From NCBI GenBank assembly GCA_903869265.1, contig CAIPYE010000017.1, positions 1 through 64,000 of the forward strand: a DNA stretch of 64,000 bases. Reading direction: 5' to 3'. Under the pieces are notes generated by a model. The model was not told where the DNA came from. It was given only the letters and a program-made list of their open reading frames with translations, and did not search any database. The translations under genes and the position numbers were made by a program. This stretch comes from an uncultured delta proteobacterium (GTDB lineage: Bacteria; Desulfobacterota; Desulfobulbia; Desulfobulbales; Desulfurivibrionaceae). Shown here in pieces: positions 33,991-59,549 of the stretch; position 1 is the stretch's first letter, and the number at the start of each line of letters is the position of its first letter.

Positions 33991-34527
33991 TCACCACCAG
34001 AACTCGGGGTATCGCCTCGTCTTGGGGATATTGTTCACCAGCAGCGCGATGACCAGCATGATGCAGGCTCCGGCTCCGGCGGGAACAAGCGCATAGAGAT
34101 AGCCCAGGGCATAGATCTTCTCGCTGCCGATCACCGCGATGAGGGCGGTGGCGCCGCCCGGCGGGTGCAGGGTTTTGGTGAGGTGCATCACCGCGATGGC
34201 CGTAGCCACCGCCACTGCCGCCGCCAGCCACATGTGCGGGGCCAGCATCTTGTAGCTGGCCACCCCGATCAGGGCCGAAAGCACATGGCCGCCGAGGAGA
34301 TTGCGCGGCTGGGCCAAGGGGCTTTTGATGGCGCCGTAGATCAACACCGCCGAGGCGCCGAAGGAGCCGATGAGCATGAGCAGGTCCGATTTGGGCAGCA
34401 GATTGTAGTTGATGAAGGCCACTGCGGCAATGCCCAAAAAAGCGCCGATCCAGGACCAGAAAACCTCGGACAGGCTTACCCTGGGCGGGCTGGTGGTGGT
34501 GCCGCGCATCTTGTCGAAATAGTTCAT
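33991..34527 (-). CDS. HPP-family transmembrane protein (178 aa)
   Basis: Four hydrophobic segments and the family's name-giving motif in HLTKTLHPPGGATALIAVIGS (about residue 117), together with YNLLPKSDLLMLIGSFGASAVL and SPLAQPRNLLGGHVLSALIG. HPP proteins are inner-membrane, and some plastid and cyanobacterial members are reported to transport nitrite; the substrate here is unproven. Its start overlaps the stop of the CBS-domain gene by four bases, and the pair lies downstream of an HcpR-like palindrome that also appears by nrfHA. That association makes a nitrogen-oxide-linked role reasonable. Confidence 0.92.
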   Translation of the reverse strand: MNYFDKMRGTTTSPPRVSLSEVFWSWIGAFLGIAAVAFINYNLLPKSDLLMLIGSFGASAVLIYGAIKSPLAQPRNLLGGHVLSALIGVASYKMLAPHMWLAAAVAVATAIAVMHLTKTLHPPGGATALIAVIGSEKIYALGYLYALVPAGAGACIMLVIALLVNNIPKTRRYPEFWW

Positions 34528-35138
34528 GGCGTCTCCCTTTCCGGAAAGGCGTGCATGAGATCGCTGCGGGTGAGAATGCCGAGCAGCCGCATCTTGCTGT
34601 CCGTCACCGGCACCCGGTTGATCCTTTTTTCCCGCATTAGCTTGCCGACCTCATGCAACAGCGCGTTTTCTGAAACCGTGATCGCAGGAGCGGTCATGAT
34701 CTCCCCTGCGGTTTTTCCCCGCATGGAGAGTGCGAAACAGCCCCCGCTGGCAAGGCTGTCGGCGATCAGCGCCATGCAGGAGGTCTGGCTGCCGTCGCCC
34801 ATGTTCCGGAAGAAATCCTGCTCCGAGAGGATGCCGGCCACGGTTCCGTCCTCTTGGACAACGGGCAGACCGGTGATGTGGTGCTTGGCCATGAGCGCCG
34901 CCGCTTCGGCAAGGGGGGTCTTCGGCCGGACCGAGATGACCTGGCGGCTCATGATCTCGGCGATGCGCAGGCTGTTGTACAGGCGGGTCTCCGCGTGCTG
35001 ATAGGCGAGCAGGTAGAGTTCCTTGAAATCCCCAGCCGAGATGTCGAGGTAGCCTGGGATTTTTTTCATCGCCTCGTAGACATCTTCGTCCGAGAGCAGC
35101 TCTGCAGGGTCAAGCCTGGGTCTGTTTATCTCCGACAT
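34524..35138 (-). CDS. CBS-domain protein (204 aa)
   Basis: A tandem CBS (Bateman) pair occupies residues 60-200: RQVISVRPKTPLAEAAALMAKHHITGLPV and DGTVAGILSEQDFFRNM in the first, then GEIMTAPAITVSENALLHEVGKLM and RINRVPVTDSKMRLLGILTRSDLM in the second. The first 60 residues are an acidic helical part (ELLSDEDVYEAMKKIPGYLDIS). Such pairs sense adenine nucleotides or NAD-type ligands and often control a partner transporter. The HPP membrane protein that follows, with overlapping codons, is the obvious candidate. Confidence 0.92.
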   Translation of the reverse strand: MSEINRPRLDPAELLSDEDVYEAMKKIPGYLDISAGDFKELYLLAYQHAETRLYNSLRIAEIMSRQVISVRPKTPLAEAAALMAKHHITGLPVVQEDGTVAGILSEQDFFRNMGDGSQTSCMALIADSLASGGCFALSMRGKTAGEIMTAPAITVSENALLHEVGKLMREKRINRVPVTDSKMRLLGILTRSDLMHAFPERETP

Positions 35139-35210
35139 CGCGGGTCCCCCTTGTTGCTGAATAGATAGATGCGTTTGAATGCACCGTATTGCACAATCCG
35201 GCTGCCATCA

Positions 35211-52210: not shown

Positions 52211-52714
52211 TTACATCTTCATCTTCTTCATTTCCTGCCTTTTTTGCCGGATCATCCGGGTGTCCTGATACATGTCCTGATAGGCCGCGCTGATAGCTGC
52301 CTCGAAATCGACCACCTCCCCGCCGTTTTCGGCGACAAACTTCAGGGCCTCATCCTTGCTGGCAAAGGCCCATTTGGCCCGACCGGTCATGACCCCTTTG
52401 ACCTTGCCGCCCAGCACCCAGGTCGCCGCTTCGGCGTTGATCAACTCTTTGCTGTTGTAGTCGCCGACCTTGATGGCTGCAGGCGTCTTGTCCAACTGGT
52501 TGGCCAAATCCAAGGCAGCGCAGTGGAGGCTGCAGAGTCCGACGGTGCTGCCGTCTGCGTATTCGATCTGCATCCGGCTGTGCGCAAAGTTCTGCCGGTC
52601 CATGCCGCAGTACTTGCAGGAAGCATGCTGGGCGATATCAGCCTGGTCCATGGCCATGGCGACTCCTCCGATACAGGCCAGCAGCAGGGCACATAACAAA
52701 AATAATTTTTTCAT
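52211..52714 (-). CDS. NosL-like copper/redox accessory protein (167 aa)
   Basis: A signal peptide (LFLLCALLLACIGGVAMA, cut near residue 21) precedes SCKYCGMDRQNFAHSRMQIEYADGSTVGLCSLHCAA (about residues 32-67), a CxxCGM motif with later Cys/His like the NosL family. NosL delivers copper to nitrous-oxide reductase in denitrifiers, but members also occur without nos genes, as here. The second half has KGVMTGRAKWAFASKDEALKFVAENGG. AGGAG precedes the ATG at 52714. It is divergent from the nrf genes and shares their palindrome-bearing region. Confidence 0.88.
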   Translation of the reverse strand: MKKLFLLCALLLACIGGVAMAMDQADIAQHASCKYCGMDRQNFAHSRMQIEYADGSTVGLCSLHCAALDLANQLDKTPAAIKVGDYNSKELINAEAATWVLGGKVKGVMTGRAKWAFASKDEALKFVAENGGEVVDFEAAISAAYQDMYQDTRMIRQKRQEMKKMKM

Positions 52715-52956
52715 GGGGCGTTCTCCTTTTGTTTTCTCGGGATTTGAGATTATCCGACAATTTTTTATAGACGTGTAATTATCAAGCAACCAATCGGAAG
52801 CACAATGCGACAAATTGTCGCACTTGGCGGGCTGCCGCACGATGGGGCGGCAAGGTTGCTAAAGGGAATGTCGGCTTGTATATGGCATTTCTCAGGGTTT
52901 TGGCACCCGGTACAGTTCTCTTAAAATGACGCGGCGAAGCGTCAACATGAATTGAC

Positions 52957-52970: not shown

Positions 52971-53046
52971 GTACCCTGTGCTACAATTTTTGTATCCTTA
53001 AAGTGCGTTCTTGCAAAAAAACAACCACATAGAGGAGGCGAAGAAA

Positions 53047-53214
53047 ATGAAGAAACCGATATGGATGGGCTCGATCATGACCCTGAGCATGGTCTGGGCA
53101 AGCTCTGGTCTGACGGCAAGCAAAGCGGCAAAGCCCAATAAGGGCGTGGATGAGGCCACCTGTTTTTCCTGCCATCAAGAGATCAAGGAGCTGAAAAAAT
53201 GGGATCATTTTTGA
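53047..53214 (+). CDS. Short monoheme c-type cytochrome, probably truncated (55 aa)
   Basis: AGGAGG precedes the start and a signal segment (MGSIMTLSMVWASSGLTAS) follows. One heme motif, CFSCH, comes near the end (VDEATCFSCHQEIKELKKWDHF). Related upstream proteins in nitrite-reductase clusters are, to my recollection, longer and multiheme, so this looks like the first heme of a larger protein that has been cut. The stop falls 16 bases inside the next gene, nrfH, whose start codon is in the other frame; such a junction could arise by deletion. Whether the protein functions is unclear. Confidence 0.65.
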   Translation: MKKPIWMGSIMTLSMVWASSGLTASKAAKPNKGVDEATCFSCHQEIKELKKWDHF

Positions 53215-53663
53215 GTGGTAAACGGCTGCGGATAGTAGTCGTTGCCGCTCTCTCCGCAACCCTGATCGGTTTTTATCTGCTGCTGGGGCCGCCGCGCCTC
53301 TTGGCCAAATCCGAGTCGCCAGACTTCTGCGCCGGTTGTCATGTCATGGAGGGCGAGTACACCAACTTCATGCATTCCGGCGCGCACCGTCGGAAAACGT
53401 GCGTTGATTGCCACCTGCCCAACGACAACCGTGTCCTGCACTACGTCTGGAAATCCATTGACGGCATGAAGGACGTGCTATTTTTCCATTCCGGTCATGT
53501 GCCCCAGCGGATCACGCTGTCCGAGCATGGGGCCAAAGTGGTAAAGGCGAACTGTCTCAGGTGTCACAGCCAGCTGGTGTCGCAGATGAACACCTCACGC
53601 AACTGCTGGAGCTGTCATCGCCGCATCACCCACACCGGGGCCGGCAGCATTCAAACACTCTAA
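53199..53663 (+). CDS. nrfH: Cytochrome c nitrite reductase small subunit
   Basis: Tetraheme NapC/NirT-family quinol oxidase that passes electrons to NrfA. One N-terminal membrane anchor (RIVVVAALSATLIGFYLLLG, about residues 10-29) is followed by four CxxCH heme sites: CAGCH, CVDCH, CLRCH and CWSCH. The length of 154 aa is normal. It precedes nrfA by 27 bases, the standard order in this phylum. Its start overlaps the stop of the short monoheme protein by 16 bases. Confidence 0.95.
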   Translation: MGSFLSGKRLRIVVVAALSATLIGFYLLLGPPRLLAKSESPDFCAGCHVMEGEYTNFMHSGAHRRKTCVDCHLPNDNRVLHYVWKSIDGMKDVLFFHSGHVPQRITLSEHGAKVVKANCLRCHSQLVSQMNTSRNCWSCHRRITHTGAGSIQTL

Positions 53664-53690: not shown

Positions 53691-55136
53691 ATGAAGAGGA
53701 AATTGCTTGCAACATTCATGACCGCCGCACTGTGCGGTGTTATGACAACCGCCTGTGCACCGCCCAAAGCGGAGCAGGTCAAAGGCGTAACTATTCCGGA
53801 CGGCACCATTGATCCGGCGGTTTGGGGCAAGGCCTATCCGGAGGAATATGAAGGCTGGAAAAAGACCGAAGATCCGACCCCGGCTGGCAAAAGCAAGTAC
53901 AAAAAAGGCAACGATGGTGGACAAATCTTCGACAAACTGTCTGAATATCCCTTTAACGCCCTGCTCTTCAACGGTTGGGGCTTTGGCGTCGAGTACAACG
54001 AGCCCCGTGGCCATTACCATATGCTGACAGACCAGCTCGAAGTTGATCCCTCTCGGGTCAAGGCCGGCGGCGCCTGCCTGACCTGCAAGACCCCCTACGC
54101 CCAGCAACTTGCCGACAAGTACGGCTCTGATTATTTCTCAAAGCCCTATAAGGACGTCCTTAACCTGATCCCCCAAAAAGATCAAAAACTTGGGGTCGCC
54201 TGTATCGACTGTCACAACAACAAAGATATGACCCTCAAGCTTTCGCGCGGATTTACTCTGGGCAAAGCGCTTGCCAAGTTGGGAGTCGATGAGACCAAAC
54301 TGACCAATCAGGACAAGCGAAGTTTGGTGTGCGCCCAATGCCATGTCACCTATATGGTCCAAAAAACCCCCGAGATGAAATCGATGGATGTTATCTTCCC
54401 CTGGGATGGAAGCAAGTGGGGCAATATCTCCATTGAGAACATCATCAAGAAGCTCCGCAGCGATAAGTCCTATGGCGAGTGGACCCAAAGTGTAACCGGC
54501 TTCAAAATGGCGTTTATCCGCCATCCAGAATTCGAGATGTTTTCCAACAACAGCGTGCATTGGATGGCAGGCGTCGCCTGTGCTGATTGTCATATGCCGT
54601 ACACCAAGGTCGGTAGCAAAAAGATTTCCGATCACCGGATCATGAGCCCGATGAAGAACGACTTCAAGGCATGCCAGCAGTGCCACGCCGAGACCCCGGA
54701 ATGGTTGAAGAGCCAGGTGATAGCCATTCAGGATCGGGCGGCATCACAGTTCATCCGCTCCGGCTATGCTTTGGCCAGGGTGGCCAAACTTTTTGAGCTG
54801 ACCCACAAGGAGCAGGCCGCTGGCAAGGAGATTGACAAAGAGCTGTACGATCTGGCCAAGGATCACTATGAAGAAGGGTTCTACCGCAACCTGTTCTTCG
54901 GCGCGGAAAATTCTCTCGGCTTCCATAACCCCAGCGAGGCGATGCGGATTCTGGGCGATGCCACCATGCATGCCGGCGAGGCCGAGGCGCTGCTGCGCCA
55001 GGCTCTGACCAAGGCCGGGGTAAGCGTCCCGGTCAAGATTGACTTGGAACTGCCCAAGTACACGAACAACCGCGGAGCCAAGAAGCTGATGTTCAAGCCG
55101 GAGCAGGAGGTGAAGGATCCGTTCGGACCCCAGTAA
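53691..55136 (+). CDS. nrfA: Ammonia-forming cytochrome c nitrite reductase (481 aa)
   Basis: Six-electron reduction of nitrite to ammonium in the periplasm. Heme sites in order: CLTCK (catalytic Lys-ligated heme, residues 129-133), CIDCH, CAQCH, CADCH and CQQCH, as in the pentaheme enzyme. NVHWMAGV-type sequence near residue 288 and the Ca-site area are present. The N-terminus is a lipoprotein-like signal (MKRKLLATFMTAALCGVMTTACAPP). An HcpR-like palindrome lies in its upstream region, and a chemoreceptor with a nitrite-sensing domain lies on the other side. Two hairpins follow. Confidence 0.97.
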   Translation: MKRKLLATFMTAALCGVMTTACAPPKAEQVKGVTIPDGTIDPAVWGKAYPEEYEGWKKTEDPTPAGKSKYKKGNDGGQIFDKLSEYPFNALLFNGWGFGVEYNEPRGHYHMLTDQLEVDPSRVKAGGACLTCKTPYAQQLADKYGSDYFSKPYKDVLNLIPQKDQKLGVACIDCHNNKDMTLKLSRGFTLGKALAKLGVDETKLTNQDKRSLVCAQCHVTYMVQKTPEMKSMDVIFPWDGSKWGNISIENIIKKLRSDKSYGEWTQSVTGFKMAFIRHPEFEMFSNNSVHWMAGVACADCHMPYTKVGSKKISDHRIMSPMKNDFKACQQCHAETPEWLKSQVIAIQDRAASQFIRSGYALARVAKLFELTHKEQAAGKEIDKELYDLAKDHYEEGFYRNLFFGAENSLGFHNPSEAMRILGDATMHAGEAEALLRQALTKAGVSVPVKIDLELPKYTNNRGAKKLMFKPEQEVKDPFGPQ

Positions 55137-55258: not shown

Positions 55259-55302
55259 TTCTCTCAGCTTGACAATTTTTAAGTCATAGAGGAAGAGCCA
55301 TA

Positions 55303-55341
55303 AAAAAAGGAACGGCGGGTTGAACCTGTCGTTCCTTTTTT
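55303..55341. terminator. Bidirectional terminator between nrfA and the chemoreceptor gene
   Basis: A-run, then GGAACGGCGGGTT pairing with AACCTGTCGTTCC (wobbles allowed), then seven T. Transcription converges here, so it can stop both strands. Confidence 0.85.
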
Positions 55342-55374
55342 TATGCAAAGTGCGCTGAAAGACGCAGGTCGGAA

Positions 55375-57177
55375 TCAGTCCGCGCCCCGCACCAGAGCGG
55401 TCAGGGCGTGCACCGTTTCCTTCATCTGTTCCGCCTGTGCGTCCAGCTCTTCGGAAGCGCTGGCAGCTTCTTCAGCAGTGGCGGCGTTCTGCTGGGTCAC
55501 CGAATCCAGTTCGGTAACAGCCAGATTGACCTGGCCGACCCCCGAGGCCTGTTCCCGCGAGGCCGTGGCGATCTCGCTCATCAAAAGGGCGACCTTGGCG
55601 GTGCTGTCGGCCACCTCCTGGAAGGACTGGTTGGTGGAGGTCACCAGTTTTTCGCCGGCCTGCACCTTCTGCACGGTTCCCTCGATGAGCCCGGCGGTGT
55701 TTTTTGCCGCCTCCGAGGCCCGCATGGCCAGATTGCGCACCTCGTCGGCGACCACGGCAAAGCCCGCGCCGGCCTCTCCGGCCCGCGCCGCCTCCACCGC
55801 CGCGTTCAGGGCCAGCAGGTTGGTCTGGAAGGCGATTTCATCGATGGTCTTGATGATCTTGGAGGTCTCCTCGCTGGCTTTTGAGATTTCCCCCATGGAC
55901 AGGGTGAGCTGGCCCATGGAGACATTGGCCGTGTCGATCACCTTGCGCGCCTCACGGGTTAAGGCCTCAGCCTGGCCGACGTTGTCGGCGTTCTGCTTGG
56001 TGACGGCGGCAATCTCTTCCAGGGAGGCCGAGGTTTCCTCGATGGCGGCGGCTTGATTTCCGGCGCCGTCCGCCAGGGACTGGCTCACCGAAGAAACCTG
56101 GCCCGCGGCGGCATGCACTTCTCCGGCGCCATTGGTCAGGTCATCGCTGATTTGCTCCAGCGAGCCCACGATGAGGGAAGAAAGGTAGGCTGCCATCAGG
56201 ATGCTCAAAGCAATGACGATCAGGGCGGTGGTAGCGGTGATGATCAGCGACGACCTGTCCGCCTGCATCCTGCTGTCCGCCATGGCAACGAGGTCCTTTC
56301 CAAGCTGGGTTTCCACCTCTTTCATCAGTTCAATCTTTTTGGTGATGGTGTCAAACCAGCGCTCCGCCTGGATGCCGAAGCCGCCCTCCTGGTGTTTGTC
56401 AAGGGCGGCGGTCTCCATGGCGGCAACCTCCGCGATTGCCGGGGCGTTCATCTTTTCCTTGTAAAAATCCTTGGCCTGGATTTCTGCAAAGGCATGGAAA
56501 TTATCGAGAAAAACCTTCTGCGCCGAGAGTATTTCCACACATTTCCGGTACATGCCGGGGGCGAAGCTGTCGTTGGCAAAGGTGTTGCTCAACACCGCCC
56601 GTTCTATGCCCATCCGCTCCTTGGCCTCCACAAAGTTGTAGTAGGCGGTGAGCGCCTTCATGATTGCCTGGTCCGGGCTGGTTTGGGCGATCAGGGGGAT
56701 GGTGGTCAGAAATTCATGGATTACCCCGGTGTAAAAGGCGATGGCCTCCGGTCCGGCGATGGACTGGGCATCGGCCTGCTGGCGGATCGCGGCGATCTTG
56801 TCGATCCCGGCCAGGGCGGCTTGCAATTTTTCATGCAGGGCGGGGTCAGCCTTGTCGGCTTTGGAATGGGCAAGGAAATCCTTGAGGGCGGCGACCCGTT
56901 TGTCGGTTTCCCCGCGTTGGCCCGGGAGACGATCCGCGAATTTTTGCCCCTTGCTGCCAAGAAAACCGGCGGTCATCCCCCGCTCCTTCTGGGCCTCGTG
57001 GGCAATCTCCGTGCTCAGACCGGCGATGGCGGCAAGCTCTTTGATGGAAGCGGCTTGGCGCAGGGTTGTGTAGCGCTCCGCGCTATTGGTGATGAGGATT
57101 ACGATCAGGAACAGCACCGGCAGGCAGACAAGCAGCCGCAACATGCTTTTGATGGTGAGGTGTTTGACGAAATTCAT
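55375..57177 (-). CDS. Methyl-accepting chemotaxis protein with nitrate/nitrite-sensing (NIT) domain (600 aa)
   Basis: Membrane helix near residues 12-30, then a periplasmic NIT-type domain: [19 protein letters not shown] (about 57) and [24 protein letters not shown] (about 180). A second membrane helix ([21 protein letters not shown], about 310-330) and the signalling domain follow, with MCP hairpin tip [43 protein letters not shown]. The NIT domain is named for sensing nitrate and nitrite. Its location beside nrfHA and a shared upstream palindrome support taxis toward or away from nitrite. Confidence 0.93.
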
Positions 57178-57252
57178 GGGTGATGATCCTCCAAGGATGG
57201 TGTGTGTTTCCCCTCAACCCAGTAAGACTAGCATGTTGGCGAGACAGTAGAC

Positions 57253-57299: not shown

Positions 57300-57734
57300 T
57301 TATCGCGCTTGCAGGGGCAAGCCCGCCGCCTTCCAGGCGCTGATGCCGCCAGCGAGGTTGTAAATCTCCCCGTACCCCTTTCCGGAAAAATACTGGCCCA
57401 CCGCATAGCTTCGCCCGCCAATGGCGCAGATCAGTAAGAGGGGCTGGCCCGTGGGCAGGGTCATCCTGCCCTGGGCCAGTTCGCCAAAGGGAATGAGCTT
57501 CGAGCCGGGAATGGACCCCTCGTAGAGTTCCTCCGGTGAGCGGACATCCACCAGCACCAGGTCTTTGCGGGTTTCGATGAGGGCCTTGGCCTCTTGCGGG
57601 GACAGGGAGCGGAAGACTGATGGCTGGCCGGAGCCCTGTGACGCCGGTTTGTTTTCCGGGGCGGTTTTGTCGCCGCAGGCGATCACCGCAAGCAATAGGA
57701 TCAAGAGGGAACAGGCCTGAAGACATTTTTTCAT
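57300..57734 (-). CDS. Rhodanese-like lipoprotein (144 aa)
   Basis: A lipoprotein signal (LQACSLLILLLAVIAC, cleaved near residue 20) puts a rhodanese domain on the outer surface or periplasm. The domain has SLSPQEAKALIETRKDLVLVDVRSPEELYEGSIPGS and the active-site loop CAIGGRS, with Cys near residue 104. It ends with NLAGGISAWKAAGLP. Likely a thiosulfate or persulfide sulfurtransferase. It follows the cysteine desulfurase gene at 24 bases on the same strand. Confidence 0.9.
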   Translation of the reverse strand: MKKCLQACSLLILLLAVIACGDKTAPENKPASQGSGQPSVFRSLSPQEAKALIETRKDLVLVDVRSPEELYEGSIPGSKLIPFGELAQGRMTLPTGQPLLLICAIGGRSYAVGQYFSGKGYGEIYNLAGGISAWKAAGLPLQAR

Positions 57735-57758
57735 AGAAATCTCGGGTGGTTATGTGGG

Positions 57759-58916
57759 TTACGATTCTGAGTGGATCCGGTCCAGGGCGTTGAGGGCGGT
57801 CTGGATTTCGGCCTCGGTGTTGAAAAAGCCTGGGGAAAGGCGCAGGGTGCCCTGGGGAAAGGTACCGATGCTGCGGTGGGCCGCAGGTGCGCAGTGGAGC
57901 CCACCCCTGGCCATGATCCCGTATTGGCGGTCGAGCTGAAAGGCCAGATCGGCCACGCTTCTTCCTGCCATGGTCAGGGAAACCGCCGAGCCTCGGTTGG
58001 CGCTGGCCGGGGGGCCATGCACGGTGATCCCTTTGATCTGGTGCAAGCCCGCGAGCAGCAGGCGGGTGAGGTGTTCTTCCTGGCGGCGGATCGTTTCTCG
58101 GCCGGTGCTGCGGATAAATTCCAACCCTGCGGCCAAGCCGCCAATGCCAAGGGTGTTGGGCGTTCCCGACTCATAACAGTCCGGCATCATCTGCGGCTGC
58201 TCTTCAAGCTCCGAATTGCTGCCCGTGCCGCCCATGGTCAGCGGCGCGGCCATGATTCCTTTCCGGAGCAGAAAGCCGCCGGTGCCGGTGGGGCCGAATA
58301 ACCCCTTGTGCCCGGTGAAGGCGAGAAAATCGATGCCAAAGGCTTCCATGTCCAAAGGGAAAACCCCTGCGGACTGGGCCGCGTCCACCATGAGCAGCGC
58401 CTCGCCCTTGCGGCTACCGATGGCACCAAGATCGGCCACGGCTCCGGTCACGTTGGAGACATGGTTGATGATGATCAGCCGGGTTTTCGCGTTCAGCCGT
58501 TTGGGGATATCGTCCGGGTCGATGGCGCCGGTGGAGTCGGTGGGCAGAATCGAAAGGACAATCCCTCGGGCCTTTTCTAGATGGCGCAGGGGCCGCATCA
58601 CCGAGTTGTGTTCCATGCCTGTGGTCAGCACCTGGTCGCCCGGTTTAAGCAGCCCGAAAATCCCCACGTTGAGCGCCTCGGTGACATTGCTGGTGAACAC
58701 CACCCGGCTTGAGTCCGGGCAGCCGAAAAAAGCGGCGACCAGCTCGCGGGTCTCAAAGATCACCCGGCTGGCGGCCAGGGAAAAGCGGTGCGCCGAGCGG
58801 CCGGGGCTTAAGGAAACCTCCTGGATCAGCCGGTGCATGGTCTCGGCCACTGCCGGGGGCTTGGGAAAAGAGGTGGCGGCGTTGTCGAGATAGATGGGGG
58901 GAGGTGAATCGGGCAT
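57759..58916 (-). CDS. Cysteine desulfurase-like aminotransferase class V (385 aa)
   Basis: PLP enzyme. IYLDNAATSFPKP (residues 8-20), THSNVTEALNVGIFGL, HNSVMRPL, VDAAQSAGVFPLD and the PLP Lys in FTGHKGLFGPTGTGG (about residue 198). The active-site region near the end is GGLHCAPAAHRSIGT, with the Cys that is the catalytic residue in the EF2568/SufS-like subgroup. In genomes of this type the family is often with yedF, linked to selenium and sulfur transfer. It is followed by a rhodanese gene. It may feed sulfur or selenium to tRNA or selenoprotein pathways; the target is inferred. Confidence 0.88.
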   Translation of the reverse strand: MPDSPPPIYLDNAATSFPKPPAVAETMHRLIQEVSLSPGRSAHRFSLAASRVIFETRELVAAFFGCPDSSRVVFTSNVTEALNVGIFGLLKPGDQVLTTGMEHNSVMRPLRHLEKARGIVLSILPTDSTGAIDPDDIPKRLNAKTRLIIINHVSNVTGAVADLGAIGSRKGEALLMVDAAQSAGVFPLDMEAFGIDFLAFTGHKGLFGPTGTGGFLLRKGIMAAPLTMGGTGSNSELEEQPQMMPDCYESGTPNTLGIGGLAAGLEFIRSTGRETIRRQEEHLTRLLLAGLHQIKGITVHGPPASANRGSAVSLTMAGRSVADLAFQLDRQYGIMARGGLHCAPAAHRSIGTFPQGTLRLSPGFFNTEAEIQTALNALDRIHSES

Positions 58917-58937
58917 AGTTAGGGGAGGCGGCGGCCT

Positions 58938-59549
58938 TCAGTAGGGGCTGATCACCTTGCTGGCCTGGGCCATGGCGTCCATGATCTCGAACATGTTGGA
59001 GGGGTTTCCCACCAGCAGGGAGTCCTTGAGGTTGAAAAAATCCAGACAGGTGCCGCAGGAGTATATTTCCACCCCCATATCGGCCAGTTCCCGGAGCGGC
59101 GCGATCAGGTCGGATTGGGTGGCAGTGATTTTCACCCCGGTATTGTAAAAAAATATTTTGGCTGGCAAGGGACTGAGGTGCTTGATGGTCTTGATGTAGG
59201 CCCGCATGAGCACCCCGCCCAGGGCATCGTTGCCCCTCCCCATGGTGTCGGCAGGAATAACGATAACCAAGCCGGCGCCGGGCAGGTCGCAGCGATACTC
59301 CTCCGGGGCCAGATCCTTGGAAGGACCCTGGTGCGGACCCTTGCTGATCGTGATGTGGCGGGTGTCTCCGGAGGCTCGGATCTCCACACCGCAACCCTGG
59401 CTTTTACCGAAGCGCTCCAGATTGCTCTGGGCGGCCTCATTGTCCACCAGCACCTCCACCGCGCCTTGTTCAAGGAAGTCGAGCAACTCCTTGGCCCTGA
59501 TCACGGGTTGCGGGCAGGCCAAGCCTCGGCAGTCGAGCACCGTATGCAT
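58938..59549 (-). CDS. yedF: Selenium-metabolism protein YedF (203 aa)
   Basis: Fusion of a TusA-like N-domain (HTVLDCRGLACPQPVIRAKELLD, with the catalytic Cys in CPQP near residue 13) and a C-terminal DsrE-like domain (ARIFFYNTGVKIT-type region and EIYSCGTCLDFFNL with CxxC near residue 166). The two-domain form is the one described as associated with selenium metabolism. Members likely carry sulfur or selenium as a persulfide. It is directly upstream of the cysteine desulfurase gene and downstream of a PilZ-domain gene, on the same strand. Confidence 0.9.
   Translation of the reverse strand: MHTVLDCRGLACPQPVIRAKELLDFLEQGAVEVLVDNEAAQSNLERFGKSQGCGVEIRASGDTRHITISKGPHQGPSKDLAPEEYRCDLPGAGLVIVIPADTMGRGNDALGGVLMRAYIKTIKHLSPLPAKIFFYNTGVKITATQSDLIAPLRELADMGVEIYSCGTCLDFFNLKDSLLVGNPSNMFEIMDAMAQASKVISPY

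Follow-up and report, generated by a model that had tools for sequence, protein, structure and literature searches.

A NIT-domain chemoreceptor gene convergent with nrfHA and its predicted place in an HcpR-type regulon of an uncultured member of the Desulfurivibrionaceae

The NIT family is named after nitrate and nitrite, but the ligands of the chemoreceptors that carry this domain are unsettled, the NIT domain of PA4520 from Pseudomonas aeruginosa being reported to bind neither anion (PMC6381276). In NasR, Q-x-x-R and G-x-x-R are described as nitrate-site motifs (PMC8199190) and E175/R176 as nitrate-site residues (PMC7496416). The HcpR box wyTTGACnnnnGTCAArw was derived by Rodionov and colleagues for Desulfotalea, Desulfuromonas and Geobacter and tied to a Ser or Pro replacing Arg180 of CRP, nrfHA being listed in the regulon of Desulfuromonas and Geobacter (PMC1274295); a position of hcpR beside hcp is given as frequent, not as defining (PMC1274295, PMC545781). 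Growth in which nitrate ammonification is coupled to the oxidation of sulfide has been reported for a Desulfurivibrio (PMC5516251). The present analysis concerns the gene of a NIT-domain chemoreceptor next to nrfHA in the window, that is, the whole stretch of 64,000 nucleotides examined (positions 1 to 64,000 of contig CAIPYE010000017.1, assembly GCA_903869265.1) from an uncultured delta proteobacterium of the order Desulfobulbales, family Desulfurivibrionaceae.

The receptor gene shares one palindromic control site with three other nitrogen-oxide operons, and it is therefore probably switched on together with the enzymes that consume nitrogen oxides. In the reading proposed here, which is given a probability of roughly 0.62, the receptor binds nitrate and/or nitrite and is activated jointly with nrfHA, hcp and an operon for a CBS-domain and an HPP-family protein (CBS-HPP operon) by a regulator of the HcpR/DNR type, giving taxis. 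Its predicted membership in an HcpR-type regulon is what the sequence adds to the domain and the palindrome already pointed out in the initial annotation.

The palindrome TTGACCTAAGTCAA was found exact upstream of both the receptor and the nrf operon, as the initial annotation had claimed. TTGAC-N4-GTCAA occurs four times in the 2,816,752 bases of the whole genome, namely in the three boxes of the window (Table 1) and as TTGACCGGGGTCAA on contig 1. The pattern TTGACYTARGTCAA with at most one mismatch also gives four sites genome-wide (none for the reversed control pattern), which are the three window boxes and C17:337400, and their targets are nrf, the receptor, the CBS-HPP operon and one hcp gene. 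The two-mismatch pattern was found 25 times in the window against a shuffle mean of 21.9, i.e. without excess, so that the signal is confined to near-exact sites. The box at C17:337400 is 92 bp upstream of the start codon (ATG) of one of the three hcp genes (PF03063) and, as TTGATTTAAGTCAA, has one mismatch to TTGACnnnnGTCAA; it had first been assigned upstream of plsY, an assignment rejected when hcp was found on the other strand. The motif of this genome equals the published delta-proteobacterial HcpR box, and, as in an HcpR1 regulon of this type, TTGACnnnnGTCAA boxes stand ahead of hcp (with the one mismatch) and of other nitrogen-oxide genes.

The promoters also agree in their geometry. 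At 4/4 sites of the genome an element TAnnnT starts exactly 23 bp past the box, which was reached by all four in 0 of 100,000 shuffles, the other offsets among the 49 scanned giving at most one site of four each. This offset first became apparent among 33 promoters, some of the window and some of relatives; three of the four sites belong to that set, and the hcp site is independent of it. Of these promoters 26 keep the first T, 25 the A and 21 the last T of the element. For locus L136 (genome G122) the set contained an incorrect box, 175 bp away, the likely one standing at 116 bp with two mismatches. A box centred near -41.5 and followed by a -10 element at this spacing is the class II layout of Crp/Fnr promoters, and activation is thus suggested.

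A single Crp/Fnr helix-turn-helix domain exceeds the cut-off in the genome, two weaker matches lying below it. This regulator is encoded at L169 1480-2160. Its best match in the PDB is DNR (E 1e-32), it has no cysteine, and its helix GTIPETLSR is identical in 30 of the 30 loci read, its own included. With positions placed by eye, the recognition helix fits Ser/Pro at CRP position 180 and Glu at 181, as well as the lack of the FNR cysteines, by the rule of PMC1274295. A regulator match at E <= 1e-20 was obtained in 73 of 77 genomes of the order, G031 and G054 showing only ~30% identity.

An open-reading-frame check returned the receptor gene with exact coordinates and strand. The initial annotation had ascribed NIT features to the periplasmic part and had made its reading depend on a match to that family; the Pfam search placed NIT (PF08376) there with 227.8 bits against a cut-off of 24.9 (E 3e-67) and MCPsignal (PF00015) with E 5e-44, and gave no HAMP match at E <= 1. 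Two hydropathy peaks, taken as transmembrane segments, flank the NIT domain, residues 337-590 were matched to Tsr 260-513, and no other NIT match is present in the genome (2.8 Mb). The structure predicted for the NIT region from five sequences (mean predicted local distance difference test score, pLDDT, 88.3) resembles NasR (PDB 4akk) with Z 34.2 and a root-mean-square deviation of 2.2 over 267 residues; the next row had Z 11.5, so that NasR alone stood clear of the other helical rows. Both nitrate-site motifs are invariant in 15/15 aligned receptor orthologues. NasR R236, placed with a numbering offset of 27 residues, was considered as a ligand residue and dropped: the residue aligned with it in the receptor is Glu, and the published motifs are Q-x-x-R, G-x-x-R and E175/R176. 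From its domain, the receptor may be expected to sense nitrate or nitrite.

Among relatives, a NIT match was found in 30 of 193 genomes of the order, and 13 genomes of the genus have an orthologous receptor. In 12 of these 13 orthologues a box of one mismatch or less is present in the 330 bp ahead of the start, the box of the thirteenth having two mismatches, and an exact box precedes both orthologues (2/2) of family f3, which were drawn from one genus; the background rate was 377 of 17,439 windows of 330 bp (2.2%), true sites counted in. Of the 24 distinct NIT receptors of less than 50% identity that were examined, for part of which the survey covered 480 bp upstream of the match, two are preceded by a box of one mismatch or less. 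In these counts G087 offered only 126 bp of upstream sequence, L109 and L229 refer to a single locus, promoters of identical sequence entered the count only once, the NIT protein of G098 (25% identical) was kept out of the orthologues, and the box survey omitted the NIT matches G165, G171, G157:C29, G059:C14, G114:C153, G028:C28 and G004:262965. A sample of 395 genomes of the phylum, some of them of the order, gave 13 matches to the orthologue alignment, at no more than 44% identity. At L007 (8001-8900) the encoded protein seems to carry tandem NIT domains, a second QKERG motif following the first domain.

In 27 genomes of the family, exact TTGACCTANGTCAA was found at 17 places, preceding CBS-HPP operons in eight cases, nrf genes or genes resembling octahaem nitrite reductase (ONR-like) in four, and the receptor in two. 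Of the remaining three places, one precedes a cupin gene, one the gene of a HAO-like multihaem cytochrome, and one either a gene with an HD domain or the divergent neighbour of that gene. The exact box before the HAO-like gene (L168 8544-8557, G037) suggests a further member of the regulon. In G138 three boxed CBS-HPP operons stand in one assembly (L121, L127, L128), two of them ~71% identical in HPP to the copy of the window. In cyanobacteria and chloroplasts HPP proteins have been associated with the transport of nitrite, and in an anammox bacterium two of them rise when nitrite is limiting (PMC7438415); a literature search combining the HPP family, the CBS domain and nitrite gave no report, subscription papers and supplements lying outside its coverage.

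The convergence of the receptor with nrfA, noted in the initial annotation, agrees with the gene coordinates and strands, and the wider link of NIT receptors with nrf that it proposed for this lineage holds in part. For 6 of the 13 genomes of the genus, the contig that carries the receptor has nrfA or an ONR-like gene no more than 10 kb away from it; it is not so in the remaining seven, of which three are cut by a contig end (G045 and G122 on the nrf side, G087 on the upstream side). Receptor and nrfA/ONR both fall within 5 kb in G053 of family f5. With an nrfA or ONR-like neighbour in 6/13 and the box in 12/13, the link through the common promoter box is the more constant of the two.

A separate case was met at L238 (G387, same phylum, family f39), where a NIT receptor with HAMP, 30% identical to that of the window, is preceded by the exact box TTGACTTCCGTCAA followed by TAGAGT at offset 23. 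This 19-kb stretch encodes NapA and NapH above their cut-offs, a NapG-family protein, an ONR-like protein, a sigma-54 activator, and NrfH and NrfA with 78% identity to their counterparts in the window (NrfA being cut at the end of the stretch); between 5617 and 19001 the ONR-like gene, the receptor, the activator gene, napA, napG/H, nrfHA and two exact boxes form an island of 13 kb. The other exact box is flanked at ~510 bp by the ONR-like gene, on whose side TAnnnT is found, and at 63 bp by a divergent AhpC/TSA gene. In G287, a genus mate of G387, the box has one mismatch and lacks the -10 element, and an ONR-like gene is ~8 kb away. The other 11 mapped stretches outside the order, several of them short, contained no NrfA, ONR or exact box. 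Since the receptors of L238 and the window differ, the pairing of NIT receptor and ammonification looks independently made, while the reductases may have moved between lineages. It is tempting to speculate on a dedicated nitrite-taxis module, in which an HcpR-type regulator co-activates a nitrite-sensing NIT receptor along with nitrite respiration, a transporter of nitrite and the defence against nitric oxide (NO), the cell thereby acquiring a nitrite sense only once nitrogen oxides are present, and in which the pairing came about at least twice, from NIT receptors unrelated to each other, but this is put forward tentatively and at somewhat short of even odds.

From the domain identity, the boxes, the promoter geometry, the conservation and the che genes present, we infer regulator binding, activation, ligand and sign of response along the following lines. 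A Crp/Fnr-type regulator of the HcpR/DNR kind would bind TTGACYTARGTCAA centred near -41.5 of class II promoters and turn on hcp, nrfHA, the CBS-HPP operon with its putative nitrite transporter, and the receptor jointly, so that the receptor would be made mainly in the presence of nitrogen oxides. Its periplasmic NIT domain would bind nitrate and/or nitrite and the signal would pass to CheA/CheW, whereby the cell would acquire taxis in nitrate/nitrite gradients alongside nitrite respiration and NO protection. The genome has eight CheW-domain matches; one che cluster comprises CheA, CheW, CheR, CheB, CheX and a receiver protein, and another CheA, CheW, CheB and methyl-accepting chemotaxis proteins (MCPs).

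Several observations weigh against the proposed role. A second in-frame hcp ATG stands only 17 bp below the hcp box, inside the proposed promoter, and a box of one mismatch or less is lacking at both of the remaining hcp copies, three being present in the genome. Of 23 distinct exact boxes in the loci examined in the order, only 12 are accompanied by TAnnnT at 23 bp in either direction. No hcp match was found in the 30 regulator loci (~3.7 kb each), and the name HcpR therefore rests on the regulon and the recognition helix, not on gene order. The box is absent before the orthologues of genus g2 (0/3) and before that of family f5 (0/1; G053), despite the nearness of nrfA in the latter. The Q-x-x-R and G-x-x-R motifs occur in most NIT domains examined, a set from which that of G026 (L098) was left out because of a stop within its stretch, and they are not diagnostic, so that a nitrate/nitrite ligand is supported and not settled. 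This common occurrence, together with the behaviour of PA4520, is also what one would expect if the receptor stood under the nitrogen-oxide regulon and bound something else, such as an organic acid or a different anion, with the box setting only nitrosative or anaerobic expression; we regard this as distinctly unlikely, since the receptor box is the same as those of nrf, CBS-HPP and hcp and since at L238 a second, unrelated NIT receptor shares a single stretch with ONR-like, Nap and Nrf genes.

The receptor might instead be part of an ilvC-rhodanese locus where nrf and ONR genes come and go without a functional tie. Five of the 13 genomes (G052, G059, G064, G087 and G135, G087 being cut upstream) have the receptor near ilvC with no nrf match beside it, and G091 has nrf at the receptor locus and no receptor; yet all five nrf-less genomes keep the receptor box with at most one mismatch, and G053 and L238 show the receptor/nrf neighbourhood in other families, so that a merely passive neighbourhood appears very improbable. 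Rather unlikely, by our estimate, is an action of the receptor through the regulon with another output, be it repulsion from toxic nitrite, twitching or a Che response outside motility. Nitrite is toxic to many sulfate reducers, and the genome has several CheA/CheW sets, one of them with CheX, CheR and CheB; no specific point speaks against such an output. Taxis along a nitrate/nitrite gradient by a co-regulated NIT receptor is preferred here.

Table 1. Features of the window related to the receptor, nrf and CBS-HPP promoters
Feature	Position	Strand	Remarks
HPP-family membrane protein, putative nitrite transporter	33991..34527	-	PF04982, E 8e-62; HPP motif at residue 121
Protein with two CBS domains	34524..35138	-	domain search
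Putative -10 TACGGT	35183..35188	-	offset 23 from CBS-HPP box
HcpR-type box TTGACCTAGGTCAA	35211..35224	-	72 bp before ATG of CBS-HPP operon
HcpR-type box TTGACCTAAGTCAA	52957..52970	+	76 bp before first ATG of nrf operon
Putative -10 TATCCT	52993..52998	+	offset 23 from nrf box
55-aa one-haem open reading frame	53047..53214	+	resembles N-terminus of relatives' octahaem nitrite reductase-like protein
nrfH	53199..53663	+	TIGR03153 (NrfH equivalog) above cut-off
nrfA, pentahaem nitrite reductase	53691..55136	+	PF02335 match; CLTCK (CXXCK) and 4 CXXCH
Putative bidirectional terminator	55297..55346	.	hairpin between A and T runs, between nrfA and receptor; z -7.4
NIT-domain chemoreceptor, 600 aa	55375..57177	-	transmembrane segments ~6-35 and ~308-341; NIT 58-296; MCP signalling domain 407-561
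NIT region, receptor residues 35-310	56248..57075	-	Q63-K-E-R66 and G190-I-E-R193 aligned with NasR nitrate-site motifs
Putative -10 TAGTCT	57225..57230	-	offset 23 from receptor box
HcpR-type box, minus-strand reading TTGACTTAGGTCAA	57253..57266	-	75 bp before receptor ATG

In the surroundings of the receptor (Table 1), nrfA passes the Pfam cut-off and remains below those of the two NrfA models of NCBI (204.5 of 595 and 154.4 of 692.5 bits), and is thus a divergent NrfA member. The nrfH start falls within the last codons of the one-haem reading frame, whereas relatives keep the ONR-like protein as a longer gene; the layout, found likewise in G091 and G132, looks as if a deletion had fused the ONR promoter to nrfHA. 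A NosL-family protein (PF05573) is encoded at 52211-52840, upstream of the nrf operon on the opposite strand, and NosL also occurs 3' of nrfA in L130, L131 and L135. At 57300-59549, genes for a rhodanese, a cysteine desulfurase-like and a TusA-DsrE (YedF-like) protein precede the receptor gene in the same orientation, which makes read-through into the receptor possible. A plasmid search gave matches all below 60% identity (35.8% in the best rows).

If the proposed role is correct, a known stress and respiration regulon takes in behaviour as well as a putative nitrite transporter. The regulation predicted here provides evidence of a nitrogen-oxide role independent of the domain, and it singles out one receptor worth testing.

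The likeness to the HcpR1 regulon of Desulfotalea, Desulfuromonas and Geobacter lies in the box and hcp, and with Desulfuromonas and Geobacter also in nrfHA (PMC1274295), whereas the chemoreceptor and the CBS-HPP operon go unmentioned in the main text of PMC1274295, which contains no match for chemotaxis, methyl-accepting, MCP, CBS or HPP. A search for HcpR and chemotaxis, with subscription papers and supplements outside its coverage, found no chemoreceptor gene under HcpR in the text covered, and one study of C. difficile lists chemotaxis among the downregulated pathways. With NasR of Klebsiella oxytoca (NIT-ANTAR) the receptor has in common the NIT fold over the whole domain and both nitrate-site motifs, but NasR is a cytosolic antiterminator, while the receptor holds its NIT domain between two transmembrane segments, with an MCP domain after the second. 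PA4520 of P. aeruginosa, compared by description only, is likewise a chemoreceptor with a predicted NIT domain, and we know of no nrf or HcpR link for it. McpN, the nitrate chemoreceptor of P. aeruginosa, has the role proposed for the present receptor, that of a membrane-bound chemoreceptor of a nitrogen oxide; it differs in its PilJ domain, in being nitrate-specific and in a transcript that falls with nitrate (PMC6381276), whereas expression of the receptor described here is predicted to rise with nitrogen oxides.
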